A DNA stretch of 64,000 nucleotides from Denitrobaculum tricleocarpae (GTDB taxonomy: Bacteria > Pseudomonadota > Alphaproteobacteria > Kiloniellales > Kiloniellaceae): NCBI RefSeq assembly GCF_007004665.1, contig NZ_ML660052.1, positions 930,001 to 994,000 on the forward strand, in the 5' to 3' direction. A program made the position numbers and the translations under genes. The notes beneath the pieces were generated by a model that worked only from the letters and a program-made list of their open reading frames with translations, was not told the origin of the DNA and did no database searches. Of this stretch, positions 2,956 through 24,372 are shown one piece after another (within the stretch, counting starts at the first letter, position 1; each line of letters begins with the position of its first letter).

Positions 2956-3052
2956 TTTTTGAACCTGCCGCTCTTCTTTGCCGACTGATCGAAAGTAACC
3001 TGGTTTCCGGCTGGGGTTTCAGATCAGTTCTATGGAGAAGAAACCATGTCCG
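2956..3052 (+). promoter_or_regulatory. Conserved 97-base leader, copy 1 (family 1 genes)
   Basis: This segment matches 7159-7255 without gaps and with five differences that I can count; the last 55 bases before and through the start codon are identical. It contains TTTTTGAACC at its 5' end, CGACTGATC at 2982, and the ribosome site GGAGAAG six bases before ATG 3046. A diverged third copy begins at 4905. The TGAAC could be the -35 of an ECF-type promoter, but I see no convincing -10. Such conservation of non-coding sequence suggests a shared promoter or 5' UTR control element, or recent duplication with selection. Confidence 0.7.
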
Positions 3053-3813
3053 GAGCTATAGATTTTTCCGTTTCCGATCGAGATTTTCACCCCCCGCACC
3101 GATCAGTAAAACCAGGCGAATATCGCCGGGGGCTGCTGTCCGTCGGCGCTTTCGCCCTGGGTATGCTCGCCTCCGGCCCGGCCGCAGCCGACTGGGGGGC
3201 GGCCAGCATATCCGAACTGGATGCCGCCGTTATCGAGGTTGCCAGCGATGGTGAGACCTATACGACTGTCGAGGCCGGGTCTCCCGCCATTAAGGGACGG
3301 ATACGGATGTATCTCGACACCCATGACTTCGGCCGGGTGAGATCCTGGGCTTTTTGGCCGAGCATCCAGGCTGACGGCGCACATAAGAAGCAGTTTCCGG
3401 AACTCAAGGTTTCCAAGAGCTACTCCCTTGGCGACCGGCCGAAGAAGGTAAAGCGGGACCTGCCCTTTTCCATTTCCCGGCAAGCTTACAAGTCGTACGC
3501 GGTGGAGGCCTGCAATCAACTGGCGTCCCGGCTTCGTAACGACCTTGGCCGGACGAACGAGCAGATCTTCGAAGCGGACCATCTGCTGTCGGTGCAGGTC
3601 CGCGCCGAGATCACCTGGGACATGTCGGGGCTCGCCAATGAAATTCCGCCTGCCAAGGAGCAGGTCGACCCTGATAGTATCGGTAAGCCCAAGGTAAAGG
3701 ACGTCACGATCAACTGTATGAAGGTTCCGTCGCCGCCGATCGTGCCTGCGGTCACCGGGGTTGCCATGATCGTCAATGGCTACGATCCGGTCAATCGAGG
3801 CGGTCAATGCTAG
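3046..3813 (+). CDS. Family 1 exported protein, N-terminal part, ended by an in-frame amber codon
   Basis: 255 residues. A twin-arginine-type signal is visible: RR at 27-28, then GLLSVGAFALGM and an A-A-A cleavage site at 46-48. The remainder is the N-terminal domain shared with the proteins at 5071 and 7249 (SISELDAAVIEVASDGETYT, WALWPSIQA-like block, DRPKKVKRDLPFSI, a Cys-containing ACNQLASRLRN helix). The frame ends at TAG 3811-3813, exactly where both paralogues have CAG (Gln) inside the sequence K/Q-C-Q-M. Everything downstream continues in the same frame. It is most likely the 5' half of a 582-codon gene with one nonsense mutation, although readthrough or a split protein is possible. 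The ribosome site and leader are intact. Confidence 0.8.
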   Translation: MSGAIDFSVSDRDFHPPHRSVKPGEYRRGLLSVGAFALGMLASGPAAADWGAASISELDAAVIEVASDGETYTTVEAGSPAIKGRIRMYLDTHDFGRVRSWAFWPSIQADGAHKKQFPELKVSKSYSLGDRPKKVKRDLPFSISRQAYKSYAVEACNQLASRLRNDLGRTNEQIFEADHLLSVQVRAEITWDMSGLANEIPPAKEQVDPDSIGKPKVKDVTINCMKVPSPPIVPAVTGVAMIVNGYDPVNRGGQC

Positions 3814-4794
3814 ATGCGGCTGAAAGGCGCGATCTCCTCGAACGTTCCCAGTCTCGACGTGACCTTCCGCTACGTCGACGGCACGGGCAAGGAGAGTGAT
3901 CTGAAAACGGTCAACACCACCGCCGATCAAAGCGGCAATTTCGAGCACAGCTATCCCTTCAGTCCGGGCCACAAAACCGGCAAGGTCCGCATCGTCGGTG
4001 AGAATTTCAACTTCGCCTCGGACTGGAAAGACTACGACTTCCAGTGCGGCGAAAAACCCACCAAGGATTTCGCGACCCTCCTGCCGCCCGAAATCAAGTT
4101 TCTGGAAGTGGGCGTGATGGCGCCGCAATTCGAGAACCAGGGCTATATCTGTCCGCTAAAGGCGAAGATGGTCGGTGGTTACCGGGGCCGGGGTCCGTCT
4201 TCGGGCAAAGCCGTTCTGACCGCGAACGGACAGGTGCAAAAAATGACAACCTTCTCCATCGAAGAGGGCGAGACGAAGGTTATCGATGAAGAATTCAATC
4301 TTCCCTGGAGCCGGGTCGGCGGACCTTTCACCCAGTCCGTCAGGTATGTCTTCACCCTCTACAACGCCGAGGGCGCTGAGGTCGACCGCATAACAACGGG
4401 CGGCAGGTATTCCTGCGAGCAGATCGTCAATGCTGCGGTCTTGCAGCTCGAGCCCGACTTTACCATCCGCGCCCCGCGCAGGTTCGCCCGCAACGGCCAG
4501 ATCATTCTGGTGGGTGCCAAGCCGGATCAGGTCTTCGAGCTGGCCTTCCTGCGCAAGACCAAGCGCGGGTACAAAGCCTATAAGTCGCCGCAGTTGCCCA
4601 AGCAGATGACTGGTGGCAAGGCAAGCTTCAACCCGCGGGCGCTCGAAGCCGGTGACTGGCGTCTCAAGGTCTGCGAAGTCAAGCAGATGAAGCGCACCGC
4701 AGGGTCCCACAACTGCCAGCAGTCCGACTTCAAGCTGATGAAACGAAAGGCGCCCGGCCAGAAGAAAACCTCGGTCAGGGGTGGCCGGGAGTAG
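3814..4794 (+). CDS. Family 1 exported protein, C-terminal part after the amber codon
   Basis: 326 residues in the same frame as the preceding fragment, starting with the ATG that directly follows the TAG (TAGATG), so termination-reinitiation is physically possible. No signal peptide of its own. It holds the first Cys-bounded beta domain (DVTFRYVDGTGKES through WKDYDFQCG), a second domain (YICPLKAKMVGGYRGRG to YSCEQ), and the family C-terminal domain (RAPRRFARNGQI to a basic K/R tail). All domains align with the uninterrupted paralogues without frameshift or deletion, which argues that the nonsense change is recent. If translated alone it would stay in the cytoplasm. Followed by a strong hairpin. 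Confidence 0.75.
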   Translation: MRLKGAISSNVPSLDVTFRYVDGTGKESDLKTVNTTADQSGNFEHSYPFSPGHKTGKVRIVGENFNFASDWKDYDFQCGEKPTKDFATLLPPEIKFLEVGVMAPQFENQGYICPLKAKMVGGYRGRGPSSGKAVLTANGQVQKMTTFSIEEGETKVIDEEFNLPWSRVGGPFTQSVRYVFTLYNAEGAEVDRITTGGRYSCEQIVNAAVLQLEPDFTIRAPRRFARNGQIILVGAKPDQVFELAFLRKTKRGYKAYKSPQLPKQMTGGKASFNPRALEAGDWRLKVCEVKQMKRTAGSHNCQQSDFKLMKRKAPGQKKTSVRGGRE

Positions 4795-4904: not shown

Positions 4905-5070
4905 TTTTTGAACCTGATCTTCCTCTCCATCGACTGATCTACAGCTACTCCGGCATTAGCGCAGATTGTGTTCAATAAAACAGACGTGTTCGAAGGCAGA
5001 GCCAGAGAATGCGATTGAGTGCGATAGGCGTGGGCTGAGTTTCCATTTATTGAATCATGGAGAAGAAGCC
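4905..5070 (+). promoter_or_regulatory. Diverged leader, copy 3 (family 1 gene at 5071)
   Basis: It shares TTTTTGAACCTG and, at the same 26-base offset, CGACTGATC with the leaders at 2956 and 7159, and ends with CATGGAGAAGAAGCC before the GTG start, matching their CTATGGAGAAGAAACC. The middle differs and is 76 bases longer. The two conserved ends mark which parts matter: the TGAAC/CGACTGATC block and the ribosome site. Confidence 0.5.
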
Positions 5071-6921
5071 GTGTTAAACCAAAGTAATACTCAAAGTCAT
5101 TATCGCGATATTCGTCCTTCAATCCCTCCGGCCAGGCCAAGCGTCTTTCGCCGGTCGCTTTTGTCCGCTGGCGCCGTGGCTCTGGGCATGACCGTCTCCG
5201 GACAAGCCCTTGCCGACTCCGGTATCTCATACATATCGCAGTTGGATCTTGCCCTCATAGAGGTCGTCAGCGATGGCGAGAATTATACCTCGGTGCCGGG
5301 TTCGTCTCCGGCCATCAAAGGCAAGATGAAGATGTTCCTGAACGCGCATAAGTACGGCCGGGTCAAATCCTGGGCCTTATGGCCGAGTATCCAGGCGGAT
5401 GATACGCCGAAGAAACAGTACCAGAACTTCAAATACTCTAAGAGCTACCCGATCGGCGACAGGCCCAAGAAGGTGGAGCGGGAGCTTCCCTTCGCCATCT
5501 ACGTTCAGGCCTACAAGACTTACGCCAAAGACGCCTGCAATCAGATGGCGTCCCGCTTGCGCAATGAACAGGGTTACAGCAACGAGGAGATCTTTTCCGT
5601 CGACCGCGTGCTCTCCGTAAAGGTCCGTGCCGAGGTCAGCTGGGAAATGTCGGGCGCTGCCAACGACGACCCGCCTCCGGTACAGGTCGATGGGGGAACT
5701 CCCGGCGCGAATCCCCTGATCAAGCCGGTCTCGATCAACTGTAAGAAGGCGCCGCCGATTCCGCCGGCGGTCACCGGATCGGCCGTTGTCGTTCAGGGCT
5801 ATGACCCGATCAATTTTGCCGGCAAGTGCCAGATGAAGCTCAACGGCTCGATCATCTCAAACGTTCCTGGTGTCGACGTGACCTTCCGCTACGTTGATGG
5901 CACCGGCAAAGAGAGCGACCTGAAAAGCGTTACTACCAACGCCAATCGAAGCGCCACCTTCGAGCATAAATACCCTCTCGGTCCGGGACATAAAACCGGC
6001 AAGGTCCGCATCGTCGGGCAGAATTTCAATTTCACCTCGAACTGGAAAGACTACGACTTCGAGTGCGGTGCCGAACCGACCAACGATCTCCAGACGTTCC
6101 TGCCGCCGAAAGCGACGCTGCTGCAGGTCGGGGCCATGGCTCCGGAATTCCAATACAAGGGCCACATCTGTCCGGTAAAGGCAAAGATGATCGGCGGCTA
6201 CAAGGGCCGGGGAAAGGTCTCCGGTAAGGCTGTTCTGGCCGCCAAGGGGCAACCCAAGGTGATGAAGTCCTACAGCATCGAAGACAGTCAAACGAAGTAC
6301 ATCGATGGAGAGTTCGTCCTTCCCTGGCAAAGCGTTCAGGGCTCTCTCCAGCAGACCGTGAACTTTGAGCTGATCATCCTTAACGCGCAGGGCGCACAGG
6401 TCGACTACATGAAGAAGTCCGTCAATTTCGCCTGCACGAAAACTGCCGCCGTCGGCAAACTGGGTGTTGGCGGCGTAACCCCGCCGCCGACGCAACCCAC
6501 CGGCAAAACGGTGGCCACCCAGGCGAAGCAGAAGATCGTCATCCTGGCGCCGCGCAACCGCATCCGCAATGGCAAGATCCGGCTCTCGGGCGCCAAGCCG
6601 GATCAGGTCCACAGCCTTGTCTTCCTGCGCAAGACCAAGAACGGATATAAGCTGCACACCTCCGCGCAGTTGCCCCAGCAGATGACCGGTGCGAAAGGAA
6701 GTTTCAATCTGAATGCACTGAGCGGCGGCGACTGGCAACTGAGGGTCTGTCCGCCCGGCGGCAATGGTCAGTTCACCGGTCCCCAGCAGTGCAAGCATGC
6801 GAACTTTTATCTGCCGAAAAAGACAAAACCGCTCGGCAAGGTCAAGACCCCGGGCAAACCCGGACCTGGACCTGGTCCAAAGCCAAAGGTCTATAAGATC
6901 GTGCCAGGTGCCGGCAGCTAA
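5071..6921 (+). CDS. Family 1 exported multi-domain protein (intact copy, 616 aa)
   Basis: I place the start at GTG 5071: this puts GGAGAAG at the same spacing as in the two sister genes and places the twin-arginine motif (RRSLLSAGAVALG) at residues 27-28 and the A-L-A cleavage site at 46-48, identical to both. Upstream in-frame starts lack this match. Layout: signal 1-48; N-terminal domain about 49-240; Cys-bounded beta domain about 252-331 (GKCQMKLNG to YDFECG); second domain about 350-455 (HICPVKAKM to FACTK); Pro/Thr linker; C-terminal domain about 488-595; Gly/Pro/Lys-rich tail. No enzyme motif is visible. Probably periplasmic or surface-located and folded before export if Tat is used. 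I do not recognise the family. Confidence 0.85.
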   Translation: MLNQSNTQSHYRDIRPSIPPARPSVFRRSLLSAGAVALGMTVSGQALADSGISYISQLDLALIEVVSDGENYTSVPGSSPAIKGKMKMFLNAHKYGRVKSWALWPSIQADDTPKKQYQNFKYSKSYPIGDRPKKVERELPFAIYVQAYKTYAKDACNQMASRLRNEQGYSNEEIFSVDRVLSVKVRAEVSWEMSGAANDDPPPVQVDGGTPGANPLIKPVSINCKKAPPIPPAVTGSAVVVQGYDPINFAGKCQMKLNGSIISNVPGVDVTFRYVDGTGKESDLKSVTTNANRSATFEHKYPLGPGHKTGKVRIVGQNFNFTSNWKDYDFECGAEPTNDLQTFLPPKATLLQVGAMAPEFQYKGHICPVKAKMIGGYKGRGKVSGKAVLAAKGQPKVMKSYSIEDSQTKYIDGEFVLPWQSVQGSLQQTVNFELIILNAQGAQVDYMKKSVNFACTKTAAVGKLGVGGVTPPPTQPTGKTVATQAKQKIVILAPRNRIRNGKIRLSGAKPDQVHSLVFLRKTKNGYKLHTSAQLPQQMTGAKGSFNLNALSGGDWQLRVCPPGGNGQFTGPQQCKHANFYLPKKTKPLGKVKTPGKPGPGPGPKPKVYKIVPGAGS

Positions 6922-7248
6922 CTATCGCCAGCTCGGTATCGCCAGCTAACGCGCGGCATCCGTCCGGTCTCGGCTCCTATGACGAGACCGGGCGGGGCAG
7001 CGGGAGCGATGTAGAAATTTCGACGCGACCGGGCAGATGCCTCGATCACAAACCAGAGGGCCTGCGAATGGTATCCGCAGTTTCTTGGGGAATTTTCTTG
7101 CCGCAGATACCCTGCCTCACTTCACTCTCTGACAATTCTTCCAAAAAAGCTCCAAGGCTTTTTGAACCCACTGCGCTTCTTTGCCGACTGATCGACAGTA
7201 ACCTGGTTTCCGGCTGGGGTTTCAGATCAGTTCTATGGAGAAGAAACC
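6922..7248. other. 327-base spacer between family 1 genes
   Basis: It holds a short repeat (TATCGCCAGCT twice near 6923-6947), the hairpin at 6964-6991 and the leader copy beginning at 7159. I see no coding signal between 6992 and 7158. Confidence 0.6.
6964..6991 (+). terminator. Hairpin after the 5071 gene
   Basis: CCGGTCTCG (6964-6972) and CGAGACCGG (6983-6991) form a perfect 9-base stem with a 10-base loop. The stem is the same as in the terminator at 4843, but no T-run follows, so it may terminate poorly or act as an RNA-stabilising 3' structure. Confidence 0.5.
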
Positions 7249-7255
7249 ATGTCCA
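7159..7255 (+). promoter_or_regulatory. Conserved 97-base leader, copy 2 (family 1 genes)
   Basis: Ungapped near-identical match to 2956-3052 at an offset of 4203 bases, including the start codon. See copy 1 for content. The region just upstream (7068-7158) does not match, so the element has a sharp 5' boundary at TTTTTGAACC. Confidence 0.7.
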
Positions 7256-9447
7256 GACCTATTGATCCGCCGAGTCCCGGCGGAGATTTCCACACCCCAC
7301 ATCTCTCAGCGAAACCAATTGGCCTTCGCCGCGGACTGCTATCCGCCGGTATCCTTGCTCTGAGCGTGGCTGCCGCCGACCCGGCGGTTGCTGATTTTGG
7401 ATCAGCGAGCATAAAGGAGCTGGATCAAGCCACCATCGAAGTGGTCAGTGACGGTGAAAACTACACGCATGTTTTGTCATCGTCGCCCGCCATTACAGGC
7501 AGGATGACGATGTCCCTCGATGCCCTTAAGTATGGCCGGATCGTATCCTGGGCTCTTTGGCCCAGCATCAAGGCCGAGGCCGAGGCTGGGAACGGCATGC
7601 CGAAAGAGCAGTTCCAGGAACTTGGCGCCTCGAAGAGTTATCCGCTTGGCGACAGGCCGAAAAAGGTATCGCGGGATCTACCCTTTTCCATTCCGTGGCA
7701 GAAATATGCCCCTTACGCCAAACAGGCTTGTAATGAGCTGGCCTCGGAACTGCGCAGCTTCCAGGGCAAGAGCAATGAGGAGATCTTTGCGAGCGATCGT
7801 ACGATCTCCCTGAAGGTCCGTGCCGAGGTCACCTGGGAAATGTCGGGAAGTGGGGCCGAATACCCACGTCGTGGCCAGGTCTCCGGTCCCGCCGTAGAGA
7901 ATTCCGCGATCAAGCCGGTCGTGATCAACTGCAAGAAAACTCCAGCACCCCCGCCGCTGACGCCCGCAGTCACCGCGGCCGCAATGATTGTAAACGGCTA
8001 CGATCCGGTCAACTTTGCCGGCAAATGTCAGATGAGGCTGAAAGGCGCGATCTCCTCGAATGTTCCCAATCTCGATGTCACCTTTCGTTACGTCGATGGG
8101 GAGGGCAAACAGAGCGATCTGAAAAGCATCAATACGACTGCCGACCAAAGCGGCAGCTTCGAGCACAGCTATCCCCTCAGCCCCGGTCACAAGACCGGTA
8201 AGATCCGGATCGTCGGGGAGAACTTCAACTTCACTTCGAGCTGGAAAAACTACGACTTCGAGTGCGGCGCCGAGCCGACCAACGACCTCCTGACGCTCCT
8301 GCCGCCGAGGGTGAAGTTTCTGGAAGTTCTCCCGACCGCCAAGGAAGTCAGGGTCAGGGGCCATATGTGCCCGGCTGAAGCGAAGATGATCGGGTCTTAT
8401 GTCGGCCGGGGATCTACGGCCGGCAAGGCGGTTCTGAAGGTGGGCGGCTTTGCCAAGTCGCAGGAAGCCTTCGACGTGGAAGATGGCGATGTCGAATACA
8501 TCGACGATGAATACGATCTTCACTGGGCGACGGTGAAAGGAAGCCTCAGACAAAAGATCGAGTTCTCGCTGGTGCTCTACAATCATCTGGGCGGAGAAGT
8601 CGACCAGATGACAAAGAAGGTGACCTTCATCTGTCGGAAGCTGGAGTCTGTCGACAACTTCGCCTCGGTCGACCCCGAGCCCAAGACCGTCAGCCTGACG
8701 GTCGGGCCCGGAAGCGGAATGCTGCTGAAGAACGGTTACAGCTGTCCGGTGCGGGTTCTGCTGACCGGCAATGTGCAAAGCAATGAGCATCCGCTCTCCG
8801 GCAAGGTCGCTTTCTTTGCCAATGGTGAAGAGTTCAAGCAGGAAGCTTTGTCGCTGGGCGGTTATTCCGGCAGCGGTTTTGCCGCGCAGCATGATCTTGA
8901 CTGGAGCCCGAAAGCCGCGCCGGGGCAGACCGCCGGTAACCTGGCCGGGTCCGCGCCGACCAAACAGAAGATCGTCTACGCGATGAAGGTCTTCAATTCG
9001 CATGGCGCGGAGATCGGCAGGAAGCTGAAGACGAAGGAATTCTCCTGCGTCAAGCTGGCGAGCGTCGGCGCCATCCCGACCTCACCGCCGGGCAAGCCGG
9101 CCGGCCAGATGGCGGCTCAGCCTAAGTTCACTATTCTGGCGCCCCGCAACCGCGTCAGTAACGGCGAGATCCGCCTGTCGGGCGCCAAGTCGAACCAGCT
9201 ACATACCCTCGCGTTCCTGCGCAAGACCCAGAGCGGTTACAAGCTTCTCAACTCCCCACAGCTGCCCAAGCAGATGATGGGGAACACGGGAAGCTTCAAT
9301 CCCGATGCGCTGGGCGGCGGGACCTGGCGGCTGAAGGTTTGCCAGCTTCTCAATCCCGATCAGTGCAAACAGTCGGACTTCTATCTGAAGAAAAAGAAGA
9401 AGTCGCCCGGCATGCCCGAGGCCGCCGGGATCCGAAGCCGGCGCTGA
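7249..9447 (+). CDS. Family 1 exported multi-domain protein with an extra domain (732 aa)
   Basis: The largest family member. Twin-arginine signal with RR at 27-28 and A-V-A at 46-48; N-terminal domain about 49-245; Cys-bounded beta domain I about 258-338 (KCQMRLKGAI to YDFECG); domain II about 356-464 (HMCPAEAKMIGSY to FICRKL); domain III about 483-603 (YSCPVRVLLTGN to FSCVKL), which resembles domain II and is missing from both sister proteins; C-terminal domain about 624-720; then a Lys/Arg tail (KKKKKSP...RSRR). Each beta domain has one Cys near each end, fitting one disulphide per domain. The C-terminal block LRKTQSGYKL...SPQLPKQM is nearly invariant in all three proteins. Probable exported structural or adhesive protein; function unknown. 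Confidence 0.88.
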   Translation: MSRPIDPPSPGGDFHTPHLSAKPIGLRRGLLSAGILALSVAAADPAVADFGSASIKELDQATIEVVSDGENYTHVLSSSPAITGRMTMSLDALKYGRIVSWALWPSIKAEAEAGNGMPKEQFQELGASKSYPLGDRPKKVSRDLPFSIPWQKYAPYAKQACNELASELRSFQGKSNEEIFASDRTISLKVRAEVTWEMSGSGAEYPRRGQVSGPAVENSAIKPVVINCKKTPAPPPLTPAVTAAAMIVNGYDPVNFAGKCQMRLKGAISSNVPNLDVTFRYVDGEGKQSDLKSINTTADQSGSFEHSYPLSPGHKTGKIRIVGENFNFTSSWKNYDFECGAEPTNDLLTLLPPRVKFLEVLPTAKEVRVRGHMCPAEAKMIGSYVGRGSTAGKAVLKVGGFAKSQEAFDVEDGDVEYIDDEYDLHWATVKGSLRQKIEFSLVLYNHLGGEVDQMTKKVTFICRKLESVDNFASVDPEPKTVSLTVGPGSGMLLKNGYSCPVRVLLTGNVQSNEHPLSGKVAFFANGEEFKQEALSLGGYSGSGFAAQHDLDWSPKAAPGQTAGNLAGSAPTKQKIVYAMKVFNSHGAEIGRKLKTKEFSCVKLASVGAIPTSPPGKPAGQMAAQPKFTILAPRNRVSNGEIRLSGAKSNQLHTLAFLRKTQSGYKLLNSPQLPKQMMGNTGSFNPDALGGGTWRLKVCQLLNPDQCKQSDFYLKKKKKSPGMPEAAGIRSRR

Positions 9448-9491: not shown

Positions 9492-9564
9492 AGGCCAACG
9501 GAGCGTTCCTCGACTTCCCGAGGACATCGCGAAGAGATTCACCCGGATGGAAAGGAAACCTCTC

Positions 9565-10110
9565 ATGAAGAACATGATTTTAAAAACCGGCCTGGCCGCG
9601 CTGATGCTGTTGCTGCCGCTCGCGACGGCCCAGGCTTCGTCGCCCCTGCATCAGCCGGAGTTTCCGGCGCATCAGGGATCCTCTGCAGCCCATCCGACCG
9701 TGGAGGCGAACCTCGACGATGGGGCAGGGCAATGGCTGGAGGTCAGCAGACAGTCTCAAAGCCCGAGAAAAGGCCCGCTGTTCGGTCTGAAGTTGAAGGA
9801 GGTAAAACTCTACAGCGTTCCGGCAAGGCCGCAGTGCGGCAAACCCGTCAAGATGATTGCCGAGTTCTACACCAACAAGCCGGGCAAGATTGACTTCTTC
9901 TATATCCGCGGTGACGGCGAGAAACAGAAAGCCAGCGTAAAGACGGTTTCGGGCGCCAAGGGGATCATGAAAAGCTGGTCGAAAACCTACAAGTTCAACG
10001 CAACGGAAAACCGCAAGTACAGAATCCACGTCAAGGATCACAAGACGGCGACCAAATGGGTTGCGCTTAAGGTCAACTGTTCCACTGGCGGGACGGGCTT
10101 GAAAAACTGA
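9565..10110 (+). CDS. Small exported protein: stand-alone family 1 beta domain
   Basis: 181 residues from ATG 9565, chosen because AAGGAAA precedes it and a clean Sec-type signal peptide follows (MKNMILKTGLAALMLLLP, cleavage near AQA-SS). After a His/Pro/Ser-rich linker, the last 80 residues run from C-G-K-P-V-K-M to K-V-N-C. Their order of features (Cys, beta strands, DFFYIRGDGEKQ, a Tyr-x-Phe strand, K-Y-R-I-H-V, W-V-A-L-K-V-N-C) parallels domain I of the large proteins (Cys, DVTFRYVDGEGKQ, HSYPL, GKIRIVGEN, W-K-N-Y-D-F-E-C). I infer it is the same domain alone, exported by Sec rather than by an RR signal. It lies 117 bases after the 7249 gene. Confidence 0.8.
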   Translation: MKNMILKTGLAALMLLLPLATAQASSPLHQPEFPAHQGSSAAHPTVEANLDDGAGQWLEVSRQSQSPRKGPLFGLKLKEVKLYSVPARPQCGKPVKMIAEFYTNKPGKIDFFYIRGDGEKQKASVKTVSGAKGIMKSWSKTYKFNATENRKYRIHVKDHKTATKWVALKVNCSTGGTGLKN

Positions 10111-10718
10111 TAGTGACCATGAGGCGGAGCTGGACCCGGGAGCTTTGCGCCCGGCATATGAGGTCTTTCGAAAAGCAGTATGAGCATTGTGACGAGGATG
10201 CGCGATTGTGCCGACGTGCCAAACATCCACCTGCGGAACACTCGTCAGCATCGGTCGTTGGAACGCAGCAAATAAATCCGAGTTGATGCCTCTCATCGGT
10301 GCCAGGTCTTTGTCGATGTGATACCGATGGGGGGCACCCCGCTTCCAACTCCTGCCCATTCTTGACCGATAAACTGTAAGTCTGTAGTCCGCGGAGCAGA
10401 GTCGTTTTCCCACGGGGCTCGGAGGAGGAAATAGCCAGGAATTTCGTTCATACGGATGCAAGACGAGCTCGTTTTATTCCAAACGCTCAAAATGAACCAG
10501 TAGTGGTGATGCGCTTGTTGCGTGAAGTCAGCCCCTCGAGTCATATGAAGGAGGAGAGCGGGAACGCTGCCGGGTAAGCCTCTGAGAGATATCCGAAAAT
10601 TTTAAGAACCATCTTTGATTTGAATGAAAATTTATCTCGACTTTTCCATAGTTATAGATTCACCCATTCTTCACGCCTATGTCTTATCTACAACCGGTAG
10701 ATGTTTGGAGGGATGTGG
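10111..10718. other. 608-base intergenic region between the two exported families
   Basis: No frame here has protein-like composition on either strand. The last 100 bases are AT-rich and hold the family 2 leader element. No clear terminator is seen after 10110; no RNA gene recognised. Confidence 0.6.
10619..10712 (+). promoter_or_regulatory. Family 2 upstream element, copy A
   Basis: TTGAAT at 10619, then TTCACCC-ATTC-TTCACGC at 10659-10676 (two 7-base half sites with an 11-base period), then TTATCTACAACC, then GGAGGG at 10707 as ribosome site for ATG 10719. The TTCAC pair stands 60 bases before the start, against 61 and 62 in the copies at 17661 and 22547. An 11-base direct repeat is the spacing used by OmpR/PhoB-type response regulators; that reading is inference. 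Confidence 0.55.
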
Positions 10719-12416
10719 ATGCGTGGCTTGGCTTTTGCTGTTCTGATTGGGGTGGCGGCAGTATCCGGTGATGGCCCGAAAGCTGTCGCGGAGACAAGCT
10801 CCGAACGAATTGGTGACTATTGGGTTTGGCAGAAGGTCTTTCGGCATGCGGGCAGGACCAAGACCGAACCCGAGATGGTGAAGGCTTTCGCTCCGTTCTT
10901 CACGAAGGCGGAGATGGATGGTGTCCCGGGAATTTCCGAACAGGATCATGACTTAAGAGTACAGCAACAGTCGGTCCGACAGCGGACAAATTTTGTCACG
11001 CGCCACTGGTTTCCATATGACCTCAATTCAGATCTCGTGGTTACGCGCGAAGAGATTGACCTGGTTGCGCGCTCTCGCGCCTTCAAGAGCTTTGCCCAAA
11101 AGTCTCCCCTGGTCATGCCGACGCAGGAGCAGCTCTCTCAGATCCAGAGTGAGATAGCGGCAGAGATACTCAAGTACTTCAAGGGCGCGACGGATGAAAT
11201 CTCGATAAAGGACGCAAACGCCATGGGTGATCCAAATTCCCAGCCTGACTGGGCGGAGAGCCTGAAGCGGTCGTTTGTGCCGCTTGATCTGGACCTGGAC
11301 GGAGATGGGATGGTCTCGCGCGCCGAGTTTGATGCGTCCGTGCGAAGAGCCTTCGCCGATATCGATCGGGACGCCGATGGCGAAATCGACGACAAAGAAC
11401 TGACCGGCGCGCGCGAAAGGCTACATACCATGCAGATGGCCGGACGAAAAAAAGCGCAGAGACAGAAGAGTAGACCGATGTCGGGGCGACAGCTCGCAAA
11501 CTGCCGGCTGCCGGAGATTGCTCCGGAGCAGGAGTTCCTGTTTGTCAGCGCCGGCACAGGTACTGTTTTGACAAACGTCGTGTTGGACGATCAGGAAGAA
11601 ACGGCCCGCTACAAACATCTCACAATAGAACCCGGTCGGAAAAAGCTGGTTCTGGCATTGACCGGCAGCAGGGCTTTGATATGGCGGATTTCGGGTGCGA
11701 CCGAGCGTGTTGCGCATGTCATCGTCGGATCCCCACCGCGCTCGAAGCGCGATCCCGACAACGTCAAGGCCGCGGGCGTCATCGGTATCGAATCCGGGAA
11801 GGTGACCTTTGCGCAGGCGCCTTACTGCGTGCCTTATGTCGCCTCGGCCGAAAAAGCGCAAGAGAAGCAGCTCGCCGCCACACTCCTGCAGCTGGCGGGA
11901 CGGGAGCCCGGTCATAGCTCGTTTGACGCCGGTGCCGGAACACTGGCTCTGCCATCGATGCAGCTCGACAAAACGCAAGACACCGAGAACCTCTTGAATC
12001 TGCCGGATAACGGCGGCGCCGGCGCCCTCATGTGGGCCAGGTTTAAGGGGGAGAATCCCATGGGGGTCGTGGATGTCGATCCCGCGACCGTGGTCACGAA
12101 CGGGAATGCCGACCGCCGAGACCTTCTGCCCGGTGAAGCCGGCTTAGCCCAGCTTTTAGATCAAGGTGCGATCGAGCCTGCCGCCTACAACGTCAGTTAT
12201 CTTCTCGGGAACAGTCGGGTGACACGTGGAATGAAGCCCGGTTCTGCAGGGCCGGCATTCTTGTCCGACCGGGAGATCATATGGTTTCCGTCCCACTACC
12301 GGGTTCTGAAAAAATTTCGCATGCCCGCCGACCTCTGTGGCTTGGGCGGTCCGTACTTTGTCAAGACGCCTGGTGTGCCGGAACCGGACCGCGGCACCTG
12401 TCCGCAGGAACGATAG
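10719..12416 (+). CDS. Family 2 secreted EF-hand protein A (565 aa)
   Basis: ATG 10719 is preferred over the in-frame ATG at 10701 because GGAGGG lies six bases upstream and the protein then begins MRGLAFAVLIG, a signal peptide that matches paralogue B. EF-hand loops: residues 101-112 (DLNSDLVVTREE, position 6 is Leu instead of Gly), 192-203 (DLDGDGMVSRAE, canonical) and 216-227 (DRDADGEIDDKE, canonical). A charged helix follows, then a middle domain (VLALTGS, IWRISGATERVAHVIVGS, VTFAQAPYC) and a C-terminal domain (VDVDPATVV, LLPGEAGLAQLLDQGAIE). The C-terminus stops at TCPQER and lacks most of the Cys-rich end found in B, C and D. Likely periplasmic or extracellular calcium-binding protein; activity unknown. 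First gene of a two-gene unit with B. Confidence 0.88.
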   Translation: MRGLAFAVLIGVAAVSGDGPKAVAETSSERIGDYWVWQKVFRHAGRTKTEPEMVKAFAPFFTKAEMDGVPGISEQDHDLRVQQQSVRQRTNFVTRHWFPYDLNSDLVVTREEIDLVARSRAFKSFAQKSPLVMPTQEQLSQIQSEIAAEILKYFKGATDEISIKDANAMGDPNSQPDWAESLKRSFVPLDLDLDGDGMVSRAEFDASVRRAFADIDRDADGEIDDKELTGARERLHTMQMAGRKKAQRQKSRPMSGRQLANCRLPEIAPEQEFLFVSAGTGTVLTNVVLDDQEETARYKHLTIEPGRKKLVLALTGSRALIWRISGATERVAHVIVGSPPRSKRDPDNVKAAGVIGIESGKVTFAQAPYCVPYVASAEKAQEKQLAATLLQLAGREPGHSSFDAGAGTLALPSMQLDKTQDTENLLNLPDNGGAGALMWARFKGENPMGVVDVDPATVVTNGNADRRDLLPGEAGLAQLLDQGAIEPAAYNVSYLLGNSRVTRGMKPGSAGPAFLSDREIIWFPSHYRVLKKFRMPADLCGLGGPYFVKTPGVPEPDRGTCPQER

Positions 12417-12526
12417 TCATGAGAAACAAGCTTGACCGGCGGCAGCCCGGGCTCGCACTGCCGCAAGCGGCGCCGGAAGCGCGTTGGGAAAATGCGAGTG
12501 GATTTGCTGCTCTGAGGAGTTGGAAG

Positions 12527-14239
12527 ATGCGTGGTCTCGGGTTTGCGGTTCTGATTGCACTGACTTTGGTACCGGCAAGTGGGTCGAAGACCGTCGCGCA
12601 GACCGCTTCTGCGTCCAGCGGCGAAGAGCAGCTATGGCATATGGTTTATGAACAGCTCCGGCATGTGCAGAGTGAGACTGACATGGTCAAGGCGCTTGGA
12701 AATGTCTACAGGCGGTCCGAGGTTGACGGTGTCGAGGGTATTTCCGAGCAGGACTATAAACTGAGTGTAAATCTGGACGCCATTCAACAGCGTCAGAGTT
12801 TTCTGATGAAACACTGGTTGCCGTTTGACCTGAACTTCGATCTCGTGGTGACGCGTGCGGAGATTGAGCGGGTTGCACGTGCGCAAGCGCAGAAGAACTT
12901 CACGTCCAGGGGCGCCCGGATTACACCCACCGAACCGCAGCTCCTGGCGGCGCAGCGCGAGATCGTCGACCGGGTTATGACTCACTACAATTCCCGCGCC
13001 GAACGGATCACGATGGAGGATGCGAACGCTGCCGCAAATGCGCTCATCGCAGACAGCCAGCGGCAACGTCGCAATCAGCAGATGGTGCCGCTGGACCTGG
13101 ACCGGGATGGCGATCGGGTCGTCTCGCGTGCGGAGTTCGACGCCGCGGTTGTCCGTGCCTTCGCGACATTCGACCGGGACGGCGACGGTAAGATCGCCGG
13201 GGAGGAGCGCGCCCTTGCGCAGCGAGCCAGCAAGGACAAAAAGCGCCAAGAGGCCAACGAGCGGAGATTTCAGGCCAAACTCAGAGAATGCAGCCTGCCC
13301 CAGGTGCCTCGTGATGTCACCTTTATGGTTTTGAACACCCATTCGCGTCCCGGCGGCGCTTTGACGAATGTCGCATTGGGTGACAAAGAGAACGTGACGC
13401 ATGTCGAACAAATCCATATCGAACCGGGCCAGGGCGATATAGTGGTCGCGATTACGGATCATCCCGATACGGTCTGGCAGTTCTCCGGGGCGGTTGAGCG
13501 GATAGCGCAGGTTCTGATCGGCGGTGAGGCGTCCGGGGTAACGGGGCTGCCTGCCGAAAAGGTGATCTTTGCAAATGGCACCGATTGCCTGCCTTACTTC
13601 TCCTCCGAAGAATACCGCGCAAGAAAACAGGTCGACCGGACAATAGAACGCCTCACCGGACGCTCGCCTGACAGCGTGCTGGTCGCGGAGAGATTCGGCC
13701 GGCTCTCGCTGCCCTCGATGACGATCGAGGAGGTGCAAACCTACGCGGATCTTTTGCCCCTACCCGACAGTGGCCCCGGTGAGTCGCTGCGGCGTAAATT
13801 TGCGCGCTTCTTTCCGGGCGGCATCGTCGACATCGATCCGGCGGACATCGTCAGCAACGTCGCGGCTGAACGGCGCCGGGTTTTGCCGGGTCACGCCGGA
13901 TTGGCTCAGCTTCTCGATGAAGGTGCCCTGGAGGCAACGGCCTACGCTCTGACCTATCCGGTCGGGCCTCATTTCAACACCATTCTGGAAGATGGCAAGC
14001 ACATCCTTCCGAGCAATATCTCGGAAGACGATGTTCTCCGCTTTCCCGTCGCCTTCACCATCCGCAAGAAAATGCGCATGCCAGCGGGACACTGCAACGG
14101 CGTCTTTCCCAAGCTGACTCTGGCGAGCGGCGTTCCCCTGCCGGAGGTTGGAAGCTGCCATCCGAAGATCTACATCACCGATACGGGTAAGACCTTGAAG
14201 TGCAGCGGGACCGCCGTTCAGTGCCGCTACGATCATTAA
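12527..14239 (+). CDS. Family 2 secreted EF-hand protein B (570 aa)
   Basis: The start at ATG 12527 follows GAGGAG by eight bases and gives MRGLGFAVLIALTLVPASG, a signal peptide parallel to protein A; longer in-frame starts would run into the end of gene A. EF-hand loops lie at 101-112 (DLNFDLVVTRAE), 192-203 (DRDGDRVVSRAE, Gly6 replaced by Arg) and 216-227 (DRDGDGKIAGEE, canonical), the same positions as in A. The middle domain (VWQFSGAVERIAQVLIGG) and C-terminal domain (IVDIDPADIV, LPGHAGLAQLLDEGALE) are full length and end in a Cys-rich stretch (GSCHPKIYITDTGKTLKC). It lies 110 bases after gene A with no separate copy of the family leader, so the two are probably co-transcribed. Confidence 0.88.
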   Translation: MRGLGFAVLIALTLVPASGSKTVAQTASASSGEEQLWHMVYEQLRHVQSETDMVKALGNVYRRSEVDGVEGISEQDYKLSVNLDAIQQRQSFLMKHWLPFDLNFDLVVTRAEIERVARAQAQKNFTSRGARITPTEPQLLAAQREIVDRVMTHYNSRAERITMEDANAAANALIADSQRQRRNQQMVPLDLDRDGDRVVSRAEFDAAVVRAFATFDRDGDGKIAGEERALAQRASKDKKRQEANERRFQAKLRECSLPQVPRDVTFMVLNTHSRPGGALTNVALGDKENVTHVEQIHIEPGQGDIVVAITDHPDTVWQFSGAVERIAQVLIGGEASGVTGLPAEKVIFANGTDCLPYFSSEEYRARKQVDRTIERLTGRSPDSVLVAERFGRLSLPSMTIEEVQTYADLLPLPDSGPGESLRRKFARFFPGGIVDIDPADIVSNVAAERRRVLPGHAGLAQLLDEGALEATAYALTYPVGPHFNTILEDGKHILPSNISEDDVLRFPVAFTIRKKMRMPAGHCNGVFPKLTLASGVPLPEVGSCHPKIYITDTGKTLKCSGTAVQCRYDH

Positions 14240-17628: not shown

Positions 17629-17717
17629 TTGAATCTATCTGTAATTTTCGGATCTCAAAATTCACACAATCTTCATTGCCGCACTTTAAGCACAACCCTG
17701 GGAAGCAATCCGGAGGG
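17629..17717 (+). promoter_or_regulatory. Family 2 upstream element, copy C
   Basis: TTGAAT at 17629, TTCACAC-AATC-TTCATTG at 17661-17678, then CACAACC and GGAGGG at 17712. CTTGAAT through the TTCAC pair aligns closely with the copy at 22513-22564, and AGCAATCCGGAGG is identical in both. Confidence 0.6.
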
Positions 17718-17721: not shown

Positions 17722-19500
17722 ATGCGCAAGTGCTTATTTGGGATTCTGACTGCTGTTGCCTTGATACCGGCAAATCCTACGCTTGCGGAGGATGACTTCC
17801 GCCCCATGGTCAGTGGGGAAGACTGGCTTTGGCAAAGGATATTTGCGCGCACGAAGCAGGAACCGGTCCGAAGCGCGATCCTCAAGCATATGGATGCAGT
17901 ATACCGTAAGTATGAGCAGGATGGCGTGGATGGCATTTCACAAGAGGACTATGACCTGGGTCTTCAACTGGCTCGCGTAAAATACCGTAACGACTTCTTG
18001 AATAGACATTGGTTGCCTTACGATCTTGACGGTGATCAAATCGTGACGCATCAAGAAGTAGAGGCCGTTAGCCGCAATAGGGTGCTTAAAAACTTCTCCG
18101 TGGAGGGTGTTCGCATTCTGCCTACTTCTGAGCAACTTGCGGAATTAGAGCGCGAAGCTGTTGCAGATACTCTGAAAAATCTAGGTGAGATCGGCGACGG
18201 AATTGACTTCTCTGAGGCGGTAATGCTCGCTGCCAGAATGGAGGAGAAGACAGGTGTACACCGGGGTGTCTTGGGTGCAATCCGCTCGTTCATGTCGCTT
18301 GATCGGGATGATGACTTGCGTGTCTCACGTGCCGAGTTCGATGCGGCTGTTCTGGAGGCTTTCGCCAGGATCGACAGCAATGGAGATGGACTCGTTGACG
18401 CTGACGAGTTCGCAGTTGCAGAGAGAGAAAGGCGGGCGTTCAAGGCGTCGTATGATAAAGAACTCAAGGCCAGGAGAGCCGCGCGGGGGGTCCAGTACAC
18501 ACTCAGAAACTGTAAGCTGCCAAAGGTGTCACCGGAACATATCTTCGCTCTTGTGAGTGCCAGATACTCAAATGCCGTCGCAAATATAGTGCTCGGTGAT
18601 CATGAGGATGCGGCGCTCGTTGAACAGATCGTTGTCGAACCAGGGCAGGCAAAACTGGTTCTGGCCTTGACCGGTTCTGCCAGTACGATTTGGCGTATTT
18701 CGGGTGCTGTAGACCGCGTCGAGCACATTATTGTTGGATCCGGCGTGCGGCAGCAGACGGAAACGAATGCGCTTGATTTTGAAGCCGTCGTGACGTCCGG
18801 TGTGACGGGAGTCGAAGCGAACAAGGTGACATTTGCGCAATCCCCTAGCTGCTTGCCGTTTCTTTCAAAGCCGGAAGACCGCGAGAGAAAAAAAGTCGAC
18901 GCTACACTCAAGCGCTTGACGGGCAGTGCGTTGGATCACGTGTCGGTGGTCATGCAGAAGAACACCGTTTTTGTGCCCTCCTTGACGACTGAGCGAAATG
19001 CGCCTTTGGATGACAGGTTGATGTTGCCGAGCACTGGCCCTGGTGAAACGCTTCGGCAAAGATTTATGAGCCGGTACCGATCGGGCATTATAGACATCGA
19101 TCCGGCAAGGGTCGTTGCAAATGGTAAAGCTCGCAGCCTTGACGTTCTTCCCAGTTATGCGGGACTTGCTCAGCTTTTGGATCAAGGCGCCTTGGAGGCC
19201 GTAAGCTATTCTCTTTCCTACTGGGTTGGAGAACGACGTTATACGATTGAAGAGGGGGGTGCGGAAGCGGTGCCGGATGACGTTCCTGCCGATAAAGTGA
19301 GCCGCTTCCCAAGCAAGTTTCTGATCAAACAGAAAATAGAAATGCCCGCCAGCCTTTGTGATGACATGGTCCCTAGGTTTTCCTTAGCACGTGGCGTGCC
19401 TCTGCCCACATTTCTGGGTTGTCACCCCAGGATCATGATCGAGGAAACAGGAGAGACCTTGATCTGTAAAAACGTCTTTCGGCTTCAGTGCCGCCCATGA
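17722..19500 (+). CDS. Family 2 secreted EF-hand protein C (592 aa)
   Basis: ATG 17722 follows GGAGGG by four bases and begins MRKCLFGILTAVALIPANPTLA, a signal peptide almost the same as in protein D. EF-hand loops: 101-112 (DLDGDQIVTHQE), 194-205 (DRDDDLRVSRAE) and 218-229 (DSNGDGLVDADE, canonical). The coiled, Arg/Lys/Glu-rich helix around 230-255 precedes the middle domain (LVLALTGSASTIWRISGAVDRVEHIIVGS) and the C-terminal domain (IIDIDPARVV, LPSYAGLAQLLDQGALEAVSYSL), ending with CHPRIMIEETGETLICK. Third-position usage is visibly more A/T-rich than in neighbours. Single-gene unit with its own leader. Probable exported Ca-binding protein; no enzymatic motif recognised. Confidence 0.88.
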   Translation: MRKCLFGILTAVALIPANPTLAEDDFRPMVSGEDWLWQRIFARTKQEPVRSAILKHMDAVYRKYEQDGVDGISQEDYDLGLQLARVKYRNDFLNRHWLPYDLDGDQIVTHQEVEAVSRNRVLKNFSVEGVRILPTSEQLAELEREAVADTLKNLGEIGDGIDFSEAVMLAARMEEKTGVHRGVLGAIRSFMSLDRDDDLRVSRAEFDAAVLEAFARIDSNGDGLVDADEFAVAERERRAFKASYDKELKARRAARGVQYTLRNCKLPKVSPEHIFALVSARYSNAVANIVLGDHEDAALVEQIVVEPGQAKLVLALTGSASTIWRISGAVDRVEHIIVGSGVRQQTETNALDFEAVVTSGVTGVEANKVTFAQSPSCLPFLSKPEDRERKKVDATLKRLTGSALDHVSVVMQKNTVFVPSLTTERNAPLDDRLMLPSTGPGETLRQRFMSRYRSGIIDIDPARVVANGKARSLDVLPSYAGLAQLLDQGALEAVSYSLSYWVGERRYTIEEGGAEAVPDDVPADKVSRFPSKFLIKQKIEMPASLCDDMVPRFSLARGVPLPTFLGCHPRIMIEETGETLICKNVFRLQCRP

Positions 19501-20296: not shown

Positions 20297-20543
20297 CTCC
20301 CGTATCTTTTGCCCGATACTGGAGAGGCGGCATTAAGGAATTGCGAAGATGAATGTGACGGAAGACTGTGGGGATTTGGTCTGACGAGGTGGCTCGCTCC
20401 TGCCTTCTGCTGCTCTTGCCGATAGTATAAGACTAAGCTCTTCTTCTGGGAAAACTGGGCGATCTCGATTTGGTTCCGGAGAGGTGTCTGTTCAAGCAGA
20501 ATATGCGGGTCTATCAATTCCACGTGAGAAAGCCGGAAGATCT

Positions 20544-21418: not shown

Positions 21419-21530
21419 TCGTCTCAACCTCGCATCCCGCCTGTCCTTCACCGCGCTCACCAGCGGACTGAGGCCGACCCGATAGGCGATTCCGGTCACG
21501 ACTCCACAGAGGTCCCCGCAGACCTCTTTT
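21419..21530 (-). pseudogene. Remnant of a hutI 3' end
   Basis: Read leftward, this encodes GDLCGVV-x-GIAYRVGLSPLVSAVKDRRDARL, which aligns with the C-terminus of the intact imidazolonepropionase at 24424 (ADLCIWD...[21 protein letters not shown]). The DNA agrees too: CTGTCCTTCACCGCGCTCAC here against CCGTCCTTCACGGACGTCAC there. The upstream 370 residues of the enzyme are absent. The remnant and the intact gene lie in the same orientation about 3 kb apart and bracket zinT and EF-hand gene D, so a duplication or insertion event is likely. Confidence 0.65.
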
Positions 21531-21577
21531 TGCCGCTTGCCGGAGCCTGGAAAATCAGATATCAGGATTATTAACGT

Positions 21578-21591
21578 AACGTTATAACGTT
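21578..21591. promoter_or_regulatory. Zur-box-like palindrome upstream of zinT
   Basis: AACGTTATAACGTT is a perfect 14-base palindrome 45 bases before the zinT start. The G-T-T-A-T-A-A-C core is the centre of known Zur operators, so zinc-dependent repression is expected; inference from motif and gene identity together. Confidence 0.65.
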
Positions 21592-21636
21592 TTATATTTC
21601 CAAGCTTATCTCGACAATCAGCAGAGGTCTCATCGC

Positions 21637-22314: not shown

Positions 22315-22335
22315 CCCAAGACCTGTTGAGCTGTC

Positions 22336-22376
22336 GCCGATGGGTTTGATCGCGATGTGCGTTCAGACCCATTGGC
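22336..22376 (+). terminator. Possible hairpin after zinT
   Basis: GCCGATGGGT (22336-22345) can pair with ACCCATTGGC (22367-22376), ten pairs with one G-T, over a 21-base loop; no T-run follows. Weak candidate. Confidence 0.3.
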
Positions 22377-22513
22377 GCGCCTGAGGTTGAGCAGGGGCTC
22401 AAAGCGATCGCTTGAGAGAATGGTCAATTACGGTAAGCGACGCCTTTGCGGTGGGCTTGGGTTGGGAGTCTTAGATGACGTCTATTCCGGCCAATATTTT
22501 AGCATAATGCCTC

Positions 22514-22602
22514 TTGAATGCATGGCTGTTTTTTTCAGATGTCAAATTCACACAATCTTCACCGCTGCAGTTTATCTACAACCTCAGGAAGCAATCCGGA
22601 GG
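22514..22602 (+). promoter_or_regulatory. Family 2 upstream element, copy D
   Basis: TTGAAT at 22514, TTCACAC-AATC-TTCACCG at 22547-22564 (perfect TTCAC half sites at 11-base period), TTTATCTACAACC, then AGCAATCCGGAGG before ATG 22609. It shares the TTATCTACAACC block with copy A and the rest with copy C. Confidence 0.6.
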
Positions 22603-22608
22603 TTGAAA

Positions 22609-24372
22609 ATGCGCAAGTGCTTGTTTGGGATTCTGACCGCCGCCGCCATGACTCCAACAAGTTCTGTGACGGCCGAAAAGTCTTCTCCCCTCGGGGTGAG
22701 CGGTGCCGATTGGGTTTGGCAAAGTGTTTATCGCCAAGTCAGGCGAGCACCGACCAAGGAGGCTCTCCTGGATGCCATGGATAACCTTTTCCGGCACTCC
22801 GAGGTTGATGGTGTGGAGGGCATTTCCGAGCAAGACTATAATCTCAGTACGCGCCTGCATTCGGCAAGACATCGCGGACTTTATCTGTCTGGTCACTGGT
22901 TCCCCTACGACCTTGATGGCGATTTGGTTGTAACCCGAGACGAGATTGAACAGGTCGCGCGCTACAAAGCTCTCAAAAGTTTTGCGGTGGACGGTGTCCC
23001 AATCACGCCGACACCTGAGCAACTTGCGAAGGTGCAGAAGAAAATATCCGAAACGATTTTGCTCAGGCTTGGTCAGGATGCCGAACGGTTCACCATGCAA
23101 GATGCAATAGCCGCATCTGCCGAGTATGAGGAACGTAAGGGTAATCAACCAAGCAAATCCGATTTTGTACCTCTGAGTCTCGATCGCGATGGCGACGCGA
23201 GAGTGTCGCGCGAAGAATTCGGTGCCGCTGTTCTCGTGGCTTTCGGACAACTCGATTCAAACGGCGATGATGTTATCGATAAGGATGAAATTGCAGTTGC
23301 CGCTGCAAAAGTTAAGCAGGCAAATGCGGAAATGATGAAGAGGCGCTCCGAGCAACGAGCTGAAGAGACATACCGCGCACAACTCCAAGCCTGTAGCTTG
23401 CCGAGAGTTACCTCGGATGAAACGCTTATTCTAATAAGCACTAACACTCATACTGGCCGCGCGCTGGCAAACATAGCGCTTGATGACGGTGAGGAAACGC
23501 TTGTTGTGGCGCAAGTCAAGATTGAGCCAGGCAAAGAAAAACTTGCTGTTGCGGTAACGGGTTTGCGCGGCACCGTCTGGAGGTTTTCAGGTGCTGTCGA
23601 TCGGCTCTCTCATGTAATCGTCGGATCGCCATTTTCGATTGGAAAACGAGAAGAACGCGTGAAGATTGCGAGCGGTGTAACCGGAGTTCCTGATGAAAAA
23701 ATCACATTTGCGCAAGAGCCCGAGTGTTTGCCCTACTTCACAAACCTTGACGAGCCTCGTTCAAAAAGATCTGTGCGGGCATTAACGGCGCTGACGGAAC
23801 GCGCCCCGGACCATGTTGTATCAAATGCCACAGTCGGCACGATCTCCTTGCCGTCTCTGAGGATCGATAATGATGCGCCCTTCGCTAATGCCATCCCACT
23901 GACCAGTGAGGGTCCCGGTGCGCCGTTACTTCGTAAGTTCAAGAAGACCTTTCCCGGCGGAGTCGTGAATATTGATCCTGCGGCTGTCGTCACGACGGGG
24001 CATGCGGAGCGCCGCGAGACACTCCCAAGAAACGCAGGTTTTGCGCAGCTGCTCGATCAAGGGGTCCTGAAAGCCACCGGATACGATCTGACTTTTCAAC
24101 TCGGCAACACATTCATTACGGTTCAGGAAAGCGATCCAAATCGCAAGCCGCCAGAAGACATGCCCAAGGATAGAATCGAGCGTTTTCCGAGCGCCTTTAC
24201 TATTCTGAAGAAAACACGCCTACCCGTCGGAAACTGCCATCAATTCGCACCGAAGCTTACGCTCGCGAAAGGTGCACCTCTACCCGATTTTGGTGCTTGC
24301 TATCCTGCTATCAAGATCGAAGATTCTGGTGAAACACTCTGCAAGTTGCACCGAGGCAAGTGCCCAAAGTGA
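22609..24372 (+). CDS. Family 2 secreted EF-hand protein D (587 aa)
   Basis: ATG 22609 follows CCGGAGG and gives MRKCLFGILTAAAMTP, a signal peptide like that of protein C. EF-hand loops: 101-112 (DLDGDLVVTRDE), 192-203 (DRDGDARVSREE) and 216-227 (DSNGDDVIDKDE), all with the acidic 1-3-5-12 ligands but with Gly6 missing. A long Lys/Glu/Arg helix follows, then the middle domain (LAVAVTGLRGTVWRFSGAVDRLSHVIVGS) and the C-terminal domain (VVNIDPAAVV, LPRNAGFAQLLDQGVLKATGYDL), ending GACYPAIKIEDSGETLC. Codon usage is more A/T-rich than in the flanking hut genes. It lies between the hutI remnant and intact hutI. Function unknown; exported Ca-binding likely. Confidence 0.88.
   Translation: MRKCLFGILTAAAMTPTSSVTAEKSSPLGVSGADWVWQSVYRQVRRAPTKEALLDAMDNLFRHSEVDGVEGISEQDYNLSTRLHSARHRGLYLSGHWFPYDLDGDLVVTRDEIEQVARYKALKSFAVDGVPITPTPEQLAKVQKKISETILLRLGQDAERFTMQDAIAASAEYEERKGNQPSKSDFVPLSLDRDGDARVSREEFGAAVLVAFGQLDSNGDDVIDKDEIAVAAAKVKQANAEMMKRRSEQRAEETYRAQLQACSLPRVTSDETLILISTNTHTGRALANIALDDGEETLVVAQVKIEPGKEKLAVAVTGLRGTVWRFSGAVDRLSHVIVGSPFSIGKREERVKIASGVTGVPDEKITFAQEPECLPYFTNLDEPRSKRSVRALTALTERAPDHVVSNATVGTISLPSLRIDNDAPFANAIPLTSEGPGAPLLRKFKKTFPGGVVNIDPAAVVTTGHAERRETLPRNAGFAQLLDQGVLKATGYDLTFQLGNTFITVQESDPNRKPPEDMPKDRIERFPSAFTILKKTRLPVGNCHQFAPKLTLAKGAPLPDFGACYPAIKIEDSGETLCKLHRGKCPK

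Follow-up and report, generated by a model that had tools for sequence, protein, structure and literature searches.

Two families of putatively exported proteins at one locus

The window analyzed here is a stretch of 64,000 nucleotides from the 6.4 Mb genome of Denitrobaculum tricleocarpae. Among relatives with a name, Pelagibius litoralis DSM 21314 and two records of uncultured Kiloniellaceae were found to be closest. Between positions 2956 and 24372, two gene families, both on the + strand, encode putatively exported proteins (Table 1). The RR family comprises three multi-domain proteins (RR1 to RR3) and a small single-domain one (RRs), and the EF family comprises four proteins with EF-hand loops (EF1 to EF4). 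The original prediction had taken the two families for a single cluster. Our analysis suggests that they are two separate sets, which are probably neighbors by chance: an RR array that would be induced by stress, and an unrelated EF set that was probably acquired. Export was called from signal-like N-termini judged by eye in both families, with a hydrophobicity scan added for the RR proteins.

As predicted, neither family could be named beyond its EF-hands. Apart from EF-hands, no Pfam or NCBIfam model scored over its cut-off, a PDB search by sequence (E up to 1) found no relative, and the seven unbroken window proteins (RR1 excluded) had zero matches in PHROGs and PADLOC at E up to 0.01. A phage or defense origin was rejected on this last result. 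Plasmid and viral carriage were also rejected: a tblastn search (E up to 1e-5) of 72,556 plasmids gave no match to RR3 or EF4, and viral contigs yielded no confirmed member of either family, both conclusions being limited to the collections searched. Among the matches listed by a literature search on the lineage, on adhesion and on CARDB, none dealt with these proteins as judged by title and start of abstract, which is not a claim that they are absent from print.

Table 1. Coordinates of the RR and EF genes and of their upstream elements in the window.
Feature	Position	Strand	Description
Promoter-like element of RR1	2956..2990	+	TTTTTGAACC-N16-CGACTGATC, ECF-type layout
RR1	3046..4794	+	Multi-domain, RR signal; in-frame TAG at 3811-3813; open pieces 3046-3813 and 3814-4794
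Promoter-like element of RR2	4905..4939	+	TTTTTGAACC-N16-CGACTGATC
RR2	5071..6921	+	RR signal, N-domain, Ig1, Ig2, C-domain, C-terminal tail with PG motif
Promoter-like element of RR3	7159..7193	+	TTTTTGAACC-N16-CGACTGATC
RR3	7249..9447	+	Layout of RR2 plus an Ig2-like repeat (Ig3), without tail; predicted beta-sandwich string
RRs	9562..10110	+	Small single-domain protein, signal-like start, about 115 bases behind RR3
EF upstream block, copy 1	10658..10695	+	Before EF1
EF1	10701..12416	+	Signal-like start, three EF-hand loops, C-terminal domain; alternative start 10719
EF2	12419..14239	+	Directly behind EF1; alternative start 12527
EF upstream block, copy 2	17658..17716	+	Before EF3
EF3	17722..19500	+	EF family
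EF upstream block, copy 3	22544..22602	+	Before EF4; 83% identical to copy 2
EF4	22609..24372	+	EF family

A conserved promoter-like element upstream of RR genes

The main new result, and the finding worth following, is a promoter-like element. Its two boxes, TTTTTGAACC and CGACTGATC, stand 16 bases apart with a variable spacer at the three window RR genes, at four in the congener G002 and at two in the congener G003. The element was counted at 56 RR-family genes (two open reading frames (ORFs) with the N-domain but under 400 amino acids were excluded, and the short one at a locus border was retained), from 250 bases before to 200 bases after each first possible start. The strict pattern, GAACC-N16-CGAC, was present at 40 genes and the loose one, GAAC-N16-18-CGAC, at 47 genes from four genera, compared with 0.13 and 1.36 expected from Markov resampling; these RR gene counts are not independent events, because G012 and G020 are near relatives. 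Most sites lie 30 to 100 bases upstream of the called start, and some inside a start called too early. The 45 distinct sites give the consensus TTGAACC-N16-CGACNNA. Positions left free in the scan were T before GAAC (100%), the preceding T (84%), C directly behind GAAC (86%) and A three bases past CGAC (97%). As far as sequence can tell, the element has the layout of a promoter for an extracytoplasmic function (ECF) sigma factor: two short, conserved boxes close to the start codon, separated at constant distance by a spacer of about 16 bases that is near random across genera.

The element is not restricted to RR genes. The pattern TTGAACC-N16-CGAC was found 24, 32, 26 and 35 times in four genomes, and its reversed form 1, 1, 3 and 4 times. 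Non-RR sites precede genes for a trypsin-like protein (PF00089, E 1e-6), a lipoprotein-like protein and, with signal-like starts, a TPR protein and further small proteins. In the window genome, at least 4 of the 24 sites fall inside genes according to rough gene calls, presumably by chance, and some others have no obvious target nearby.

In 12 genomes searched, the exact extended element had two occurrences outside RR genes, one in the window genome and the other in G002. Both (L149:1583-3068 and L158) are located about 735 bases upstream of an acyltransferase gene. The window-genome enzyme is a PEP-CTERM/exosortase-associated acyltransferase (TIGR03694, E 1e-68), and the G002 one opens with nearly the same residues, a likeness judged from the start only. 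The stretch between element and gene contains no clear gene and is 92% identical in the two species. This identity is no higher than in the window neighborhood; therefore, the conservation of the stretch is no evidence of a long transcript.

Other genes were seen close to RR-type elements. Another family with signal-like starts (YGGI...TPMSVNCSQPVGGG) lies under such an element at L171:1518-2447 and L180:2243-4346; it is tandemly duplicated in G003, and the scanned member, L171, had no Pfam or NCBIfam match. A globin gene (PF00042, L154:1930-2379) stands about 570 bases behind a site, and L180:1559-2014, whose product resembles the L154 globin by look, about 35 bases behind a site. The placement of these two genes might point to a regulon for nitrosative or oxidative stress. 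A sigma factor gene by an RR paralogue on contig C16 (L081:7837-9185), which we take to be of the ECF41 type, has no element upstream and is probably a mere neighbor. By eye, it sits behind a carboxymuconolactone-decarboxylase-like gene.

RR proteins form a modular, lineage-typical family

RR relatives were searched at E up to 0.001 in 143 genomes picked as relatives. All 16 carriers belong to the window's order, and 15 of them to its own family. In a separate draw of 385 genomes from the class, six carriers were found: the window genome, a same-family genome, G322, G376 and, with weak matches, G320 and G396. The genes are often arranged in tandem, with six copies in P. litoralis, five in G004, four in G002 and two in G003. 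The RR proteins thus appear to be an unannotated family typical of this lineage, with an array size that varies among species.

Three multi-domain RR-signal proteins had been predicted and three were found, but RR1 is broken by an in-frame stop. An ATG immediately follows this stop, and the G002 counterpart of RR1 is intact. Relative to G002, dN/dS is 0.10 for RR2, 0.24 for RR3, 0.21 for RRs and 0.28 and 0.16 for the two RR1 pieces, with 0.10 for both comparison genes, zinT and PPK2. These values show purifying selection on the RR genes. As this extends to the RR1 pieces, the break would be either recent or a sequence error, and both readings of RR1, pseudogene or sequence error, are kept.

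The domain order of the family is signal, N-domain, Ig-like 1, Ig-like 2 (sometimes repeated) and C-domain. With one choice of domain borders, drawn by eye, hhalign related Ig2 to Ig3 (99.7%, E 4e-27) and detected no significant similarity between Ig1 and either of them. The predicted single-domain relative, RRs, is present, but its relation to the first Ig-like domain is weak (hhalign probability 24%, E 8e-4, 75 columns); it is possibly co-transcribed with RR3. The AlphaFold model of RR3 (mean pLDDT 77.5) suggests well-formed beads in an uncertain arrangement. In Foldseek, it matched best 6xi3, a tetra-tandem repeat of an adhesin (E 2e-10); the next matches were mostly A2M, C3, C4 and C5 chains. 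Judging from this model, RR proteins would be modular beta-sandwich proteins. Among ten relatives with the same N-domain that were scanned, a CARDB domain at the C-terminal end scored over the Pfam cut-off in three (L115, L110, L076) and just under it in two (L075, L116); none was seen in the five others. The CARDB carriers are among the more distant members of the family.

The RR profile matched 56 ORFs, one of which is the second half of a gene split by a locus border and lacks the N-domain. Tails and twin-arginine motifs were counted in 55 members, excluding three N-domain ORFs of less than 400 amino acids and including the three window proteins. A C-terminal tail, consisting of a short hydrophobic stretch and then PG or PN plus two to five residues, was present in 26 members, when shuffling of the last 60 residues gave an expectation of 1.3. 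Within the window, only RR2 has it (6874-6918, the last 15 residues). The tail is frequently preceded by a Pro-rich stretch. PEP-CTERM substrates carry a C-terminal PEP motif, a transmembrane segment and a basic end. By eye, no hydrophobic segment was seen in the listed last 45 residues of RR members, which argues against their being PEP-CTERM/exosortase substrates.

Twin arginines before the hydrophobic signal stretch occur in 34 of the 55 members (window proteins: 3/3), and with a hydrophobic residue at +2 in 25. Moreover, no anchor or outer-membrane domain was recognized in the window RR proteins with Pfam and NCBIfam. Both observations would suit periplasmic binders of substrates or cofactors exported by the twin-arginine translocation (Tat) pathway, rather than adhesins, the array then serving to amplify gene dosage. 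We regard this as a possible but rather unlikely explanation. Indeed, the motif is missing in 21 members: Tat export may not be family-wide, and the RR signal, noted in the original prediction for the multi-domain proteins, is present in the three window proteins but not in every family member. RR2 and RR3 are 58% identical, most members from other genera are about 29-44% identical to RR3 and the number of domains varies, which is atypical of dosage amplification. The presence of CARDB in RR relatives also argues against this explanation.

EF proteins and their own upstream block

The four predicted EF-hand proteins with signal-like starts were all recovered, each with three canonical 12-residue loops. 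EF-hand Pfam models (PF00036/PF13405) scored over cut-off in EF1, EF3 and EF4 and under it in EF2. The proteins are about 570-610 amino acids long, and EF2 to EF4 are 37-39% identical to EF1. They end in a domain of about 300 residues without a Pfam name. A profile of this domain (E up to 1e-6) matched 4 of 61 genomes of the order and 5 of 385 genomes drawn from the class, possibly the same ones as for RR, the window genome being counted in both. EF-hands were combined with the domain in G046, G019, G396, G150 and G302. In G023, the domain is present in three tandem genes, of which the one scanned has no EF-hand, and G332 gave a weak domain match with one EF loop under cut-off. The domain is shared by distant genomes. 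The structure model was too poor for its best Foldseek matches to the orphan regions of endoglin and betaglycan (E 5e-3) to be used.

A block containing TTCACNCANTCTTCA had three exact matches in the whole genome, all at EF1, EF3 and EF4; with one mismatch allowed, it had 7 matches, compared with 2 for the reversed pattern. EF2 has no upstream block, and the RR element (GAAC-N16-18-CGAC) was found at none of the four window EF genes. Thus, the prediction that each family has an upstream element of its own is borne out, with the two-box element at RR genes and this block at three EF genes. Third-position G+C is 0.55 for EF3 and 0.52 for EF4, compared with 0.73-0.75 for the RR genes.

The two families mostly occur apart

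DNA matches between the window and G002 (82-92% identity) run to position 10128, cover 14275-15400, 16526-17557, 19661-20350 and 21433-22376, and resume from 24433. All EF genes fall in the gaps 10128-14275, 17557-19661 and 22376-24433; at these places, G002 carries 366, about 3,200 and about 1,070 bases of other sequence, respectively. G002 keeps its RR array without any EF gene, and no EF gene was found in the three congeners G001-G003. The intervening genes had been predicted to be possible passengers. GNAT, VOC, PPK2, DUF4259 and zinT keep their order in G002, which has no EF genes. The DMT gene had no match in G002; together with the gene at 20484-21395, it lies in further gaps. The layout of the EF genes fits the local spread of an acquired unit.

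In G002, other ORFs (L067:9310-12276 and L067:16025-16948) occupy the places of EF3 and EF4; these spots are therefore labile in both species. A second copy of the hutI 3' end, about 80% identical, was observed upstream of zinT (21433-21494 and 24433-24498), also in G002, and appears to be the trace of an old duplication or insertion.

Among the 61 genomes of the order, 16 carry RR genes, 4 carry EF genes and 2 carry both (the window genome and G019). G019 is a draft in which the two families map to separate contigs and could lie close together or far apart. In the class draws, RR was found in 6/385 and EF in 5/385 genomes; the overlap comprised the window genome and G396, which has a weak RR match about 247 kb away from its EF gene. 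RR and EF genes were adjacent in no examined genome except the window's own. A check of co-occurrence and proximity in other Alphaproteobacteria had been proposed with the original prediction; as far as these order and class samples go, its outcome is the one named there as refuting a single cluster. This reading is rejected, also in view of the EF-free array of G002 and the differing upstream elements.

The families could nevertheless form one calcium-responsive surface system in this species, in which EF proteins bind calcium outside the cell and regulate or bridge RR adhesins, co-location being functional here. The genes of both families span no more than 21 kb, with EF1 about 590 bases behind the RR array, and their products look exported; moreover, PMC13171946 describes a periplasmic EF-hand protein of Caulobacter that is tied to an ECF sigma factor. 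Such a system is very doubtful, given that 14 of the 16 RR-bearing genomes of the order have no EF gene and 2 of the 4 EF-bearing ones no RR gene, that the families are on separate contigs or far apart in G019 and G396, and that the four EF genes lack the RR element.

Discussion

Altogether, we favor two independent sets of exported proteins. Most genes of the RR array would each be driven from a separate promoter with the ECF-sigma layout. In response to an envelope or stress signal, an ECF sigma factor would be freed, and the array would be transcribed together with other envelope genes. RR proteins would then be exported, folded with disulfides in their Cys-bounded Ig-like modules, and take on a binding, adhesive or matrix-type role in the periplasm or at the surface. 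The tail conserved in about half of the members probably docks them to a partner. The EF genes would have been gained, perhaps recently, by the window species beside the RR array, and spread by local duplication together with their own upstream block. Their products may bind calcium and would be calcium-responsive envelope proteins independent of the RR array. The surface, matrix or adhesion role put forward in the original prediction is thus plausible for the RR proteins, given CARDB in relatives and the tandem Ig-like model, but not as a joint system with the EF proteins.

Several points weigh against this account. The element is missing at 9 of 56 RR genes. No sigma factor gene carrying the element was found: in 16 of 17 sigma factor loci of the genome (the match plus about 1.5 kb on each side), the strict pattern was found on neither strand, and in the remaining one it occurs once, on the strand opposite the sigma gene. 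Eight of these loci have an assigned frame and show no loose match within 400 bases upstream, and nine have no assigned start. Twin arginines are absent in 21 of 55 RR members. Concerning structure, the RR3 model has a pTM of only 0.34, its Foldseek TM-scores over the query are at most 0.16 among the 50 matches listed, and Ig-like folds are generic; the EF model is poor (mean pLDDT 58.5). Finally, third-position G+C of EF1 and EF2 (0.67 and 0.69) is near that of the surroundings, and loss of EF genes from G001-G003 would be an alternative to gain.

That the element might be a relic of recent gene duplication without any role is hardly credible: array members of the window do have longer upstream similarity in common, but across genera the boxes keep their spacing around a near-random spacer, and they also stand before unrelated genes whose products have signal-like starts.

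Within the favored account of separate sets, a doubtful extension would be that an ECF-type regulon of Kiloniellaceae/Pelagibius couples a variable Ig-like array with a docking tail (hydrophobic strand plus PGxGN) to the exosortase-associated signal acyltransferase, forming a surface coat that is controlled by stress or density and differs from PEP-CTERM sorting. More generally, the conserved two-box promoter would define an envelope-protein regulon in a little-studied marine lineage, in place of a guessed gene cluster. The work also points to an unannotated modular family of exported proteins and to an unannotated domain fused to EF-hands.

Comparison with known systems

The tandem Ig-like extender domains of large adhesins and the MG domains of alpha-2-macroglobulin and complement form strings of beta-sandwiches like that predicted for RR3. 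With no PDB sequence match at E up to 1 and low TM-scores, the resemblance is one of fold only. CARDB proteins (PF07705) are exported Ig-like modules. Three RR relatives that end in CARDB (L115, L110 and L076) match the profile of the RR family at E 3e-50 or better, whereas the window RR proteins have another C-domain (hhalign against CARDB: 0.3%) and no CARDB match at E up to 1.

The window EF proteins have weak EF-hand similarity to lanmodulin (NF053806), but the best score was 24 bits, compared with an equivalog cut-off of 135. Lanmodulin EF loops have a Pro at position 2, which the window loops lack. Exported EF-hand proteins of other bacteria include Pseudomonas EfhP, rhizobial calsymin and Caulobacter CaBP. 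As described in PMC13171946, CaBP has 133 amino acids, a Sec signal and three EF-hands, and is tied to SigV. EF1 to EF4 likewise combine a signal-like start with three EF-hand loops, but are far longer (about 570-610 amino acids) and carry the C-terminal domain, which was found in a few other alphaproteobacteria. The Caulobacter sigV promoter quoted in PMC13171946 differs from the RR element.

The RR element was also compared with ECF-sigma promoters given in two papers: the Shewanella RpoE promoter GAACTT-16/17-TCCAAA (PMC4336711), and the promoters of Bacillus subtilis SigW, with -35 box ATTGAAACCTTT, and Escherichia coli RpoE (PMC8103513). Its -10 box, CGACNNA, is unmatched in these comparison promoters. 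The RR element nevertheless has in common with them a GAAC-type -35 box, a spacer of about 16 bases and a short -10 box.

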